A program made the position numbers and the translations under genes. The notes below the pieces were generated by a model, which saw only the letters and a program-made list of their open reading frames with translations, had not been told where the DNA came from and did no database searches. Shown piece by piece: positions 51,238 to 60,373 of a stretch of DNA of 64,000 nt (positions within the stretch are counted from its first letter, which is position 1; each line of letters opens with the position of its first letter). The stretch is from Alphaproteobacteria bacterium (GTDB lineage: Bacteria; Pseudomonadota; Alphaproteobacteria; Rhodobacterales; Rhodobacteraceae): NCBI GenBank assembly GCA_030428355.1, contig JAUIBL010000005.1, forward strand, positions 1-64,000, written 5' to 3'.

Positions 51238-51702
51238 ATGAAATTTGCAGACCTGTTGAGTTCCAAAGCCGTCAAGGCAGTGACAAGTGTATCCAGCAAG
51301 AAGCGACTGATGCATGACATCGCCGATGTCGCCGAGTCTGCTTATGGCATCTCTGCCCAACGCGCTGTCGAAGCGCTGCTTGAACGCGAAAGCCTTGGCC
51401 CCACCGGTGTGGGCCATGGCGTCGCCTTGCCCCATGCGCGGCTGGATGGGGTCGAGTCGGTGGTGGGTGTGTTCATCCTGCTGGAAAAGCCGATTGATTT
51501 CGAAGCGATCGACCGTCAGCCCGTGGATGTGATCTTTGCACTGTTCGCCCCTGAAGATGCAGGTGTCGAACATCTCAAGGCGCTGGCACTGGTGTCGCGT
51601 ACGCTGCGCGATCCGAATTTCTGCGCCAAACTGCGGGCAAACCCCGATCCTGCAACGCTGCACACCATCATCACCGAGGCGGCGACCGTCCAGGCGGCCT
51701 GA
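51238..51702 (+). CDS. ptsN: Nitrogen PTS EIIA protein PtsN
   Basis: The 154-aa EIIA-type phosphoacceptor of the nitrogen PTS, which links nitrogen and potassium status to regulation. The phosphorylated histidine is His66 in GHGVALPHARLDG. The flanking blocks RAVEALLERESLGPTG and LEKPIDFEAIDRQPVDVIFA match the family. It follows hpf at 41 bases. The usual upstream partner rpoN is not at this locus. Confidence 0.95.
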   Translation: MKFADLLSSKAVKAVTSVSSKKRLMHDIADVAESAYGISAQRAVEALLERESLGPTGVGHGVALPHARLDGVESVVGVFILLEKPIDFEAIDRQPVDVIFALFAPEDAGVEHLKALALVSRTLRDPNFCAKLRANPDPATLHTIITEAATVQAA

Positions 51703-51714
51703 CGCGACCCCAAC

Positions 51715-53148
51715 TCAGGCGGTCGGGGTGAAATCCGAAAACCCGAACATCATGTAGTCGCGCGGATAGGCGTCCCGGCACAACTGATCCAGTGACCCAT
51801 CGTGGACCTGGCTCAGACGCTGTGCATGGGCATCCGGGGTGGTGTCCCACGGCGGAGTGTCTGCGATCCCAAGCCTGTCGGCCATTTGCGCCAATGCATC
51901 CGGCAGATCGTCTTCGTGGACAAGTCTGTCAGGCAGACAGAATTCCGCCATCCCTTGCAGGCAGGTTGTCTGGCTGGCCCAATGGGCGTCGACCCGGATG
52001 CTGGTCTGGCCGTTCAGATTGGCGCGAAGGAACCCGAGAAAGGCCGTAAAGGCGCGTTTGTGCGCCGTCAGATCATATCCGGGATCGTTCGGGTCGTCCG
52101 GCAGATCAAGGCCATGCGCCCGAACAAGCTGCTGCCGGATCTTGGCGAAACTTCCCGGCCCGGTGTTCAGGATCTTGTCGCAGAAGGCGGAATGAGCGCG
52201 GACAAGAGGGTGGCGCAGTACAGTAAAGCGCTGATGTCCCGGAGTGTTCTGCAACCACGCGCGCAGGCTTTTCTGATTGAAATTCGTGATCAAATCGGTG
52301 CCTGCACCGTCAAGTGCCGACATCCACCGGGTCACCTGTTCTTCTGGTCCTGATCTGATCGGCAGGTACAGCAGAGGATGGCGCGCGCAGGCCACATAGC
52401 TTGGCACAACCGGCCCACGCCGTGGTTCGAAATTCGGCGTCCGCGTCAGGTCGAACCGGTCCAGTGCCCGCAAGGCCACTTCCATCTGGCTGTAATTTGC
52501 GACCTTGTCGGACAGCGGTTGGGGATTCTGCGGCTTCAGATTGGCTTGAAACAAATCCGGATCGGCCTTTGCCCCAAGGAAGTGCGCAAGGCCGCTCAGG
52601 ACTTCGCTGTCGTGCAGATCGTCATACCCGATGTAAAAGGCGCTTTGCCCGGTCACCTGCAGCGCGCGCATGATCTCGAGCTGAAACGCTTGTGTTTGCC
52701 CAAGATGACGTTCGAATTCGTGCAGATCGAAATGCGCCTGCGCCTCTTTGCGGTTCTTTACGTTGGTCAGTTTCCACTGGTCTGTCGCCCGCGCGATCTT
52801 GAGGCTGATATAGCTGTCGAGCGGATTGCGCGTCAGGATGATCTTGGCGCAGCGCGGGTCCGACAGGATCGGAGCAAGCACCCGCGGATCATGGTCGTGG
52901 AAATACCGGAACCCGCCCAACCCGTCGGTCTTGTCACGGATCACGCGCAGCAGGCGGTCTGGATTGTCTTCGCGCTGGCGATGGGTGATGCCAAGGATGT
53001 CATCCCGGTTCGGGTAACCGATGAAATTGGGATTGAACGCCTAGCCGTGACAGGTCACGCCATTGATCTGGTTCAGGTAATCTTCAAGCAGGTTCGACCC
53101 TGTCCGCATCTCGGCGAAAACCACAAACAGATCGAACGAACCGGCCAC
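51715..53148 (-). pseudogene. Two-part sulfotransferase gene interrupted by TAG at codon 36
   Basis: Reading leftward from a GTG at 53148, three bases after the GT14 stop, the frame encodes AEMRTGSNLLEDYL (12-25) and reaches a TAG at 53041-53043 (codon 36) after VTCHG. It resumes in the same frame with AFNPNFIGYPNRDDIL and stays open for 441 more codons. Stf0-like sulfotransferases have Glu at the stop position (GEAFNP-type motif), so a single GAG-to-TAG change is likely. The remainder has 3'-phosphate-binding TRNPLDSYISL (106-116) and a second sulfotransferase half with LPIRSGPEEQ (262-271) and RHPLVRAHSAF (312-322). Without readthrough, translation could restart only after the first PAPS loop, for example at a GTG at 52944. 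Confidence 0.8.
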
Positions 53149-53151
53149 GCG

Positions 53152-54858
53152 TTATTTCTTCACAAGATAGGGACGGGGACGCGGTGCGTTCATCGCGGGC
53201 CCCTGTGCGATCGGATCGGCAGGGAAATCACCCATCAGATAGGGATGCATCCCCTGGTTCTTGAGGTTCTGCAGGAACTGCCCAAATCCGGTGAGGTCCA
53301 CCATCTTGGGCGCCTCTGTCAGGCGGCGGTGCGGTTGCGTGCCGATCTCGTCGACGATCACCTGAATCGCTTCCATCGGGCTTTCGATGAATTCCGCCAT
53401 CGTCCAGATGCGACGACGGCATTTGGAATAGGGCGACCGCAGCGCGTCCAGCATCTCGGTCTCGATCTTCTGCAACTGCGCCGCCTCGCGCCGCAATTCG
53501 GCAAAGCTGCGGTTCGATTGGAACAGCGGGATCGCCCAGGCCCCCGAGATGACCGACACCTGCGCGTTGGGATCCTTGGCGATGTCCCAGATCACATGCC
53601 GCGTGCTGCTTGGCCCAAGCTGGAAACACTGGCGTTCGCCGCGCGTGTTCCACAACAGGTTGGTCAGGAACATCTTGGTGTCATAGTCGCGCAAAGTCGC
53701 GTTGTCGGAAAGCGCACCGTTCATCACGGTTTGCCCGTCGGCAAAATGCGCCCGATCCGGTGCAAAGAGATGCCCATGCACCCGCGCACCCGTCACCTGC
53801 GCCAGCCACGGTTCGAAATCGCTGAAAAGCTCTGTGAATCCTTGGAACACCGAATATTTGGCTGCCGTAACGCCGTTCTCCCAATCCTCGTTCGGAAAAC
53901 GGCTTTGCATGTAAAGCCCCGGCCGCCCGCGTGTCCGCCGATCCACCGCCTTGGCAAAAATGCGGTCGATCTTGCCGGGGTTGGGTTCCTGCAGGCTCAA
54001 TTCTCCCGGCTTGGGGCTCAGGAACGTCTCGTACAGTCGATCCGCATTGTGCCAGATCTTGCGCGCGACAAAACAGTCCGACCGGCGCAGCAATTGCAGG
54101 TGGTCGTCGTAAAAGATGTGCGGCTTGCCCTGGAAGTCGAACTTTGAAAGGGTCAGCGACCGGCTGACGATATTCGTTGAATAAAGCCGCGCGAGTGTCT
54201 GGAAATAGCTTTCATCCGGAATCCACACGTGGCGGAAATACCGATCATAGACCTTGCGCTTGGGGTCTTCGAGGATCGACGCCAGCGTCTGCCGCGTCAG
54301 GCACCACCACTGGCTGCCCATATGCGGTGTCAGACCGTCGGGGATCTTGCGCTTGTAGCCGATCTTTCGCTGCAATTCGACGAAGCGGTCGAACAGATAC
54401 CGGTTGCGCCGCCACGAAAACGGGAAGCGCATGGTAAAGCGTTCCTCGTCCAGCCCGCCCACTGTCCAGGGCACATCCGCCGTTGTCGCGCTTTCGATGT
54501 GATCGGTGCGCGGGCGCGCCTTGAGGTAATCGATCAGTTCCTGAACCGGGCGCAATGGCAGGCATGACCCGGATGTGAGGTAGACATGGCTCACCTCTTC
54601 GAACTCGGCCAGCATCAACTCGCTGGCGTCCTGACTGGCAGCCACCAGACCCCACGTGCCCCAGTCGCAGCGATGCCTGCGCGAAAAGCGGATCAGGGGA
54701 TCATCGCTCAGCCGTTCGGTGAAGATCTTGTAGCGCTTTGCCGACACCACCTGATCCACATGGATCACCACCGGGCATCCCGCCTTGGTCCAGTGACGGG
54801 CCACCTGCTCGGCCCGGTGCAGCGCAGTATGCGCCAGCATGACGATCCCGATGCTCAT
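53152..54858 (-). CDS. GT14-type glycosyltransferase with a distinct C-terminal module
   Basis: A 568-aa protein. The N-terminal half is a GT14 catalytic domain: HVD (33-35), YLTSGSCLPLRP (93-104), GSQWWCLTR (181-189) and WIPDESYFQTL (212-222), aligning almost residue for residue with the transferase at 31675-33252. The C-terminal ~270 residues (from about QSRFPNEDWENGVTA) differ from that paralogue; I recall related Rhodobacteraceae proteins labelled DUF5927/5928 but cannot verify it. It overlaps the upstream GT2 gene by four bases and is followed 3 bases later by the interrupted sulfotransferase, so glycan transfer and sulfation were coupled. Confidence 0.85.
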   Translation of the reverse strand: MSIGIVMLAHTALHRAEQVARHWTKAGCPVVIHVDQVVSAKRYKIFTERLSDDPLIRFSRRHRCDWGTWGLVAASQDASELMLAEFEEVSHVYLTSGSCLPLRPVQELIDYLKARPRTDHIESATTADVPWTVGGLDEERFTMRFPFSWRRNRYLFDRFVELQRKIGYKRKIPDGLTPHMGSQWWCLTRQTLASILEDPKRKVYDRYFRHVWIPDESYFQTLARLYSTNIVSRSLTLSKFDFQGKPHIFYDDHLQLLRRSDCFVARKIWHNADRLYETFLSPKPGELSLQEPNPGKIDRIFAKAVDRRTRGRPGLYMQSRFPNEDWENGVTAAKYSVFQGFTELFSDFEPWLAQVTGARVHGHLFAPDRAHFADGQTVMNGALSDNATLRDYDTKMFLTNLLWNTRGERQCFQLGPSSTRHVIWDIAKDPNAQVSVISGAWAIPLFQSNRSFAELRREAAQLQKIETEMLDALRSPYSKCRRRIWTMAEFIESPMEAIQVIVDEIGTQPHRRLTEAPKMVDLTGFGQFLQNLKNQGMHPYLMGDFPADPIAQGPAMNAPRPRPYLVKK

Positions 54859-59450: not shown

Positions 59451-60248
59451 TCAGACGGGCAAGAGGTCGATGCCCGGTGCCGTCGCCACGAAGAACGGGT
59501 TGGCAAAGCCCGGCTTGCCATAGGTCAGCGGCTGCAAGTCATCGAGGCGCAAGACGCGCCCGCCTGCGCCGGTCAGCACCGCATGTCCCGCGGCGGTGTC
59601 CCACTCCATTGTGCGGCCCAGACGCGGGTAGAAATCCGCCTCGCCCGTTGCGACCAGGCAGAACTTCAAGGAAGACCCCGCGCTCTTGCTGTCCTTGACC
59701 GAATAACGGTTGATGTAATCGTCGGTCGCCTGATCGCGGTGCGATTTCGAAGCCACCACCATGAGACCATCGGTATCCGGCTTTGAGACATGGATGGGTG
59801 TGACGGCTCCGATCACGTTTTTGTCGAAACGGCCGGTTTCCTCGACACTGCGCCCACCTGCGTCCGTATAGAACAGCCGTCCCTTGGCCGGGGCATAGAC
59901 AATGCCCCGCGTCGGGACACCGTTCTCGACCAGAGCGATATTGACCGTGAAATCGCCGCGGCGATGAATGAACTCCTTGGTGCCGTCCAGAGGATCGACA
60001 ATCAGAAAATCCCGCACGTCCAGATCATGCGTGTCGGCCTGTTCCTCGGTGATGAGGGCGATGTCGGGGAATGCGGCACGCAGCCCGGCGGCGATCAGGG
60101 CGTCGGCAGCCTCGTCGGCGGCCGTGACCGGGCTTTCGTCGGATTTCGACCGCACCTCGAAATCATCGGCCTCGTAGATTGCCATGATCGTGTCACCGGC
60201 TTCAAGCGCAAGGCGACGCATCGTTTGCGTCAAAACTTCATAATCCAT
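59451..60248 (-). CDS. cysQ: 3'(2'),5'-bisphosphate nucleotidase CysQ
   Basis: Hydrolyses PAP, the by-product of PAPS-using sulfotransferases and of sulfate assimilation, to AMP. The 265-aa protein is an inositol-monophosphatase-superfamily enzyme with the metal motifs TEEQADTHD, VDPLDGTKEF and EWDTAAGHAVL. It sits at the head of the glycan operon with sulfotransferase genes in the same window. This gives a plausible reason for its location: keeping PAP low supports sulfation. The ATG at 60248 gives the standard N-terminus MDYEVLTQTM. Confidence 0.94.
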   Translation of the reverse strand: MDYEVLTQTMRRLALEAGDTIMAIYEADDFEVRSKSDESPVTAADEAADALIAAGLRAAFPDIALITEEQADTHDLDVRDFLIVDPLDGTKEFIHRRGDFTVNIALVENGVPTRGIVYAPAKGRLFYTDAGGRSVEETGRFDKNVIGAVTPIHVSKPDTDGLMVVASKSHRDQATDDYINRYSVKDSKSAGSSLKFCLVATGEADFYPRLGRTMEWDTAAGHAVLTGAGGRVLRLDDLQPLTYGKPGFANPFFVATAPGIDLLPV

Positions 60249-60373
60249 ACCCGTCGTCCTTACGTCGATTGATTTAAAACCGCGTCTCACTTATCATTCG
60301 CTTAATTAATGTCCGCAACAACAGTCAGGTGAATTGACGGAAAAACGCGGGCTGCGGCAGAGGCAGACAACAG

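Follow-up and report, generated by a model that had tools for sequence, protein, structure and literature searches.

A gene for a likely sulfotransferase of the NodH/Stf0 kind, as judged from its sequence and from the predicted structure of a relative, is interrupted by a single in-frame TAG in the window (the whole stretch of DNA analysed, 64,000 nucleotides). The stop occupies codon 36, which encodes glutamate in every relative read. The break most likely arose by mutation a very short time ago or reflects a wrong base in the draft; a novel decoding of TAG is less likely. About an even chance was given to the reading in which the sampled Marivita-like cells really acquired this nonsense codon very recently and do not make the full enzyme. 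The weights of this and of the three other readings considered below are a matter of judgement.

Open reading frame and the interrupting stop

The frame lies on the minus strand and opens with GTG (53148-53146). Its first 35 codons, the start included (53044-53148), encode the first strand, the PAPS-loop-like motif MRTGSN and its helix. Codon 36 is TAG (53041-53043), and the 441 sense codons after it (51718-53040) hold the remaining N-terminal sulfotransferase-like region and a C-terminal part with a Sulfotransfer_2 match. The TGA at 51715-51717 is the natural end of the gene, the frames of relatives ending no more than 12 codons away from it (429-443 codons past codon 36). The earlier note had placed the start, the stop and the gene end at the same positions and had described the frame as free of frameshifts and other stops, which was confirmed. 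As neither a second stop nor a frameshift was detected between 51715 and 53148, such damage was rejected as the cause of the break.

Residues 1-35 were identical to those of the orthologue of Marivita cryptomonadis CL-SK44, the closest named relative by this gene, and the part after the stop was 85% identical to it. Judged by this identity, the 441 open codons are not a product of chance. Among 16 congeners, the start codon was GTG in the same place in 12 cases, TTG in two and ATG in one, and in the last one it was ATG one codon later. A comparison with homologues, in which the N-terminal part might have turned out not to belong to the gene, resulted in a start region and first 35 residues that are common to relatives; a wrong start or an unrelated upstream piece was rejected on these grounds.

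Conservation of the gene and of codon 36

Relatives were read in two overlapping sets, the best 80 of 475 from a collection of named genomes and a second set of 29 loci. The encoded proteins of the best 80 of 475 were 465-479 residues long. Codon 36 was a glutamate codon in all 80 of them (64 GAG and 16 GAA) and in all 29 loci of the second set, and TAG was found at this codon in 0/80 and 0/29, respectively. The expectation of a GEAFNP-type glutamate at the position of the stop was thereby fully borne out, and the alignment of homologues at codon 36, proposed as a check, gave glutamate throughout the relatives read.

The gene was uninterrupted in the other genomes of the genus examined (16/16), as determined by full-length matches to the post-stop part. 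Outside the genus, this part was matched in 17 of 20 genomes of the same family (E ≤ 0.001) and in 0 of 24 genomes of the class outside the family; 34 of 61 genomes were matched in all, the source genome included. A sulfotransferase gene with 55% identity is carried by JAFKDC010000005.1. With all congeners examined retaining the gene, a loss would be unusual.

Codon 36 was GAG in eight of the 16 congeners and GAA in the other eight, including the closest one, M. cryptomonadis. The change from GAG to TAG takes one base and that from GAA takes two. Due to the even split and to the GAA of the closest congener, the last sense codon before TAG cannot be named.

The possibility of partial expression was considered with the same relatives. 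Translation might restart downstream of the stop, for example at GTG 52944, and give only the C-terminal sulfotransferase part. The 409-codon frame from this GTG retains the Sulfotransfer_2 match, but its product would be devoid of the PAPS-loop strand, loop and helix and of the invariant glutamate. No Shine-Dalgarno-like purine run was seen by eye before 52944, and all the relatives read, 29 in one set and the best 80 of 475 in the other, were full length with none of them built in this manner. A restart is accordingly regarded as improbable.

Reading of TAG in the source genome

The earlier note had offered three causes for the break: a recent nonsense mutation, a sequence error and a readthrough codon. 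In the last case, TAG would be read through or recoded at a useful frequency, giving the full-length enzyme, perhaps conditionally, and the sulfation of a surface glycan would depend on readthrough. In favour of this reading, the codons beyond the stop remain open and under constraint, the glutamate that it replaces is invariant and possibly catalytic, and the survey described below retained one other internal stop, likewise TAG, although two cases make no trend. However, a recent mutation or an error accounts equally well for the intact frame, and the decoding apparatus argues against readthrough. RF1 is present in the source genome. The tRNA genes found were all typed (36/36) and none of them reads a stop, a result which is not absolute in a genome that is 87% complete, as a suppressor could lie on the missing sequence, and a pattern search of the source genome for a CUA-tRNA gave 0 hits. 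The distinct orthologue ends (n = 257) were TAG in 31 cases, TAA in 60 and TGA in 166; an earlier tally of 34 TAG in 319 tests had counted some genes more than once. TAG is an ordinary terminator in the source genome. An alternative code or a suppressor was rejected on the basis of RF1, the absence of a stop-reading anticodon among the 36 tRNAs and the use of TAG as terminator. The features by which UAG recoding is recognised were not observed, i.e. no decoding tRNA was found, RF1 is kept and TAG is not conserved at the site. Readthrough was considered the least probable reading and highly improbable in itself. Of the three proposed causes, the recent nonsense mutation and the sequence error both survive, and readthrough is disfavoured in view of the glutamate-only relatives, RF1, the tRNAs and the TAG terminators.

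Constraint on the interrupted gene

The pairwise dN/dS of the interrupted gene and that of M. cryptomonadis was determined to be 0.072 (dN 0.087, dS 1.215). The mean pairwise value among 15 other Marivita-like sequences was 0.097 with a range of 0.049-0.193 (105 pairs, those with undefined values excluded). At codons other than 36, the interrupted gene departed from none of the 87 columns (0/87) on which the other 80 sequences all agree; 62 of these 80 likewise break none of their invariant columns. An arginine that is near-invariant (79/80 relatives) is replaced with histidine at residue 411. The rough terminal-branch dN/dS was 0.173 for the interrupted gene and 0.041 for M. cryptomonadis, and this estimate was given no weight because synonymous changes are near saturation. 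Long-standing decay was rejected by the pairwise dN/dS and the unbroken invariant columns. Since the frame is still intact and constrained, any loss would be recent relative to the distance to the next species examined.

Survey of internal stops and quality of the draft

The source genome, of which the window is C34:1-64000, is a draft of 3,556,845 bases in 83 contigs with a completeness of 87.22%. No second genome of the species was found among the 17 of the genus examined, the source included; the best DNA match in the others was 87% identical over 261 bases. To survey internal stops, 792 genes read in 971,849 bases of sequence from three congeners were compared with 1,631,527 bases of the source genome. 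A stop was counted only if it lay within a single match that spanned 85% of the query, which leaves out genes split by frameshifts. In the source genome, 544 orthologue tests at about 460 distinct places raised five flags at which the sequence was conserved before and after the stop. The sulfotransferase accounted for two of them, having been found with two relatives as query, and an EamA-like gene for one; the other two were discarded by hand as frames prolonged too far upstream. When the comparison was turned round, with 467 tests at about 453 places, four stops were flagged, and inspection by hand attributed every one of them to frames prolonged in this manner. The remaining internal-stop flags were set aside by hand, the frame being antisense or running upstream beyond the true start, or the match being a side match to a paralogue. 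The internal stops kept after hand judging were thus two in about 460 places in the source genome versus none in about 453 in the relatives. Counts this small neither establish that the assembly is bad nor clear it.

The second stop lies in an EamA-like transporter frame (contig C40, 56728-55808, minus strand, locus L232), the EamA naming being our own reading. Of its 307 codons, number 286 is TAG; the corresponding residue of the M. cryptomonadis orthologue is Trp, and beyond the stop the two are 81% identical. The break is therefore not unique to the sulfotransferase locus. In congener G014 (contig C101, 2179-2718), a PF13469 sulfotransferase match with one TAA inside the frame was observed.

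The survey bears on the reading that most cells have an intact gene and that TAG entered the draft as a wrong base or as the allele of a minor strain in the consensus. The fragmented and incomplete state of the draft, the two stops kept here and none in the relatives, and a gene that is intact in 16/16 congeners and otherwise carries no marks of decay are all in line with such an error. According to the excerpted text of Cooley and Wright (PMC11017572), many internal stops are assembly errors with low coverage as a cause, low-coverage assemblies gaining false internal stops. In contrast, the sulfotransferase gene has neither a frameshift nor other damage, and two stops against none are far too few to prove poor quality. 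An error or a minor-strain allele was rated as a serious possibility with somewhat less than an even chance. The 83 contigs of the draft and the two bases that separate the GAA of M. cryptomonadis from TAG count against a real allele.

Predicted fold and function

The PAPS-loop-like motif reported in the earlier note was found as MRTGSN, invariant in 80/80 relatives read (best 80 of 475) and located on a predicted strand-loop-helix. The second set of sulfotransferase motifs downstream of the stop was corroborated by the Pfam Sulfotransfer_2 match to the C-terminal part. PF03567 matches residues 268-435 of the post-stop piece with an E value of 1.8e-9, and it matched 73 of the 76 relatives scanned. 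A tandem duplication of the N- and C-terminal halves was unsupported by profile comparison (hhalign probability 4.7%). In the case of the intact M. cryptomonadis relative (L031), the only one modelled, the predicted structure had a mean pLDDT of 85.0 and a pTM of 0.52. The prediction contains the strand-loop-helix and strand-turn-helix of a PAPS site (E7-12, H18-27, E100-106 and H109-122), elements which are described in the excerpted part of a review (PMC11625862). Taken together, the interrupted gene is likely to be a conserved sulfotransferase of the NodH/Stf0 kind. None of the NCBIfam models matched it or its Branch-DUF5927 neighbour at E values up to 0.001.

Stf0 uses a glutamate as base; a literature search for Stf0 with 'general base' or Glu36 found nothing. 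Histidine or glutamate serves as the catalytic base of sulfotransferases in the excerpted text of the review (PMC11625862), and the codon-36 glutamate may be the catalytic base of the present enzyme. No enzymatic activity is expected of the 35-residue product.

Gene neighbourhood

The upstream neighbour on the same strand (53152-54858, minus) encodes a Branch (core-2/I-branching) glycosyltransferase domain and DUF5927, with 3 bases between its stop and the GTG of the sulfotransferase. Among the best 80 of 475 relatives, this gene adjoins the sulfotransferase on the same strand in 79/80 loci; the sequence of the remaining locus (L078) has 31 bases ahead of the sulfotransferase. A glycosyltransferase family 2 gene (PF13704; 54855-55865, minus) follows upstream and was found on the same strand in at least 75/80 loci. 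The convergent neighbour on the plus strand (51238-51702) is ptsN-like with a TIGR01419 score of 128.5 bits, which is below the cut-off of 138.7. It was found on the opposite strand in at least 72/80 loci. The pair of the Branch-DUF5927 gene and the NodH-like sulfotransferase was observed beside ptsN and hpf in 72/80 loci. A literature search on DUF5927 found no papers. The pair, which no NCBIfam model matched at this threshold of 0.001, would merit functional study.

About 6 kb upstream of the sulfotransferase, a cysQ gene for 3'(2'),5'-bisphosphate nucleotidase (59451-60290, minus) was identified by TIGR01331 with 266 bits against a cut-off of 228.8 (scanned as 59454-60248), and its orthologues were found in the stretches analysed of two other genomes (G009 and G002). 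Nucleotidases of this type clear PAP, the by-product of sulfotransferases. Located near glycan genes, the cysQ-type nucleotidase is a possible PAP-clearing partner of the sulfotransferase. An APS kinase domain, which is needed to make PAPS, is present in the source genome. The glycosyltransferase neighbours, cysQ and the APS kinase domain fit a PAPS-using enzyme that acts on a glycan, and from this we infer a dependence on PAPS and a role in sulfating a glycan of the cell surface.

Discussion

The preferred reading, a real and recent nonsense change, takes the base to be real and no rescue to occur. Translation would end after 35 residues, the full sulfotransferase would not be made, and the sulfation step of the glycan locus would be lost in the sampled cells. 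That the main glycan cluster would thereby be deprived of sulfation, as the earlier note proposed, is plausible. What marks a recent nonsense allele was observed: the orthologues have a sense codon and full length (16/16 congeners intact, glutamate in 80/80 of the relatives read), and there is little further decay. No second, compensating copy was found in the source genome, and one further sulfotransferase match (PF13469) lies on another of its contigs. If the stop is real, the sampled cells represent a natural knock-out of a sulfotransferase kept by every other genome of the genus examined, which could help to find its substrate. If it is an error, the case is one more warning against inferring gene loss from a draft genome.

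As to known systems, the interrupted gene resembles the internal-stop pseudogenes, real or spurious, of bacterial assemblies: in the excerpted text of PMC11017572, likewise, a single internal stop breaks a gene that is otherwise sound and whose orthologues are intact. That work compares near-identical genomes and reassembles reads, whereas the present case is known from one draft assembly. With respect to the fold, the best Foldseek matches of the predicted M. cryptomonadis relative were the trehalose sulfotransferase Stf0 (PDB 1tex) and an Alicyclobacillus sulfotransferase (3rnl), with E values of 1.7e-4 and 1.6e-4, respectively. The identities were 15-16%, and the TM-scores by target length were 0.56 and 0.49, respectively. 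The LPS sulfotransferase NodH (PDB 9vki) was matched by the profile of 76 relatives over its residues 25-178 (profile positions 7-151, E 1.4e-9). The NodH chain has 264 amino acids in contrast to the approximately 475 of the present family, which adds the C-terminal part matching Sulfotransfer_2. One of the glutamates of NodH aligns with the codon-36 glutamate.
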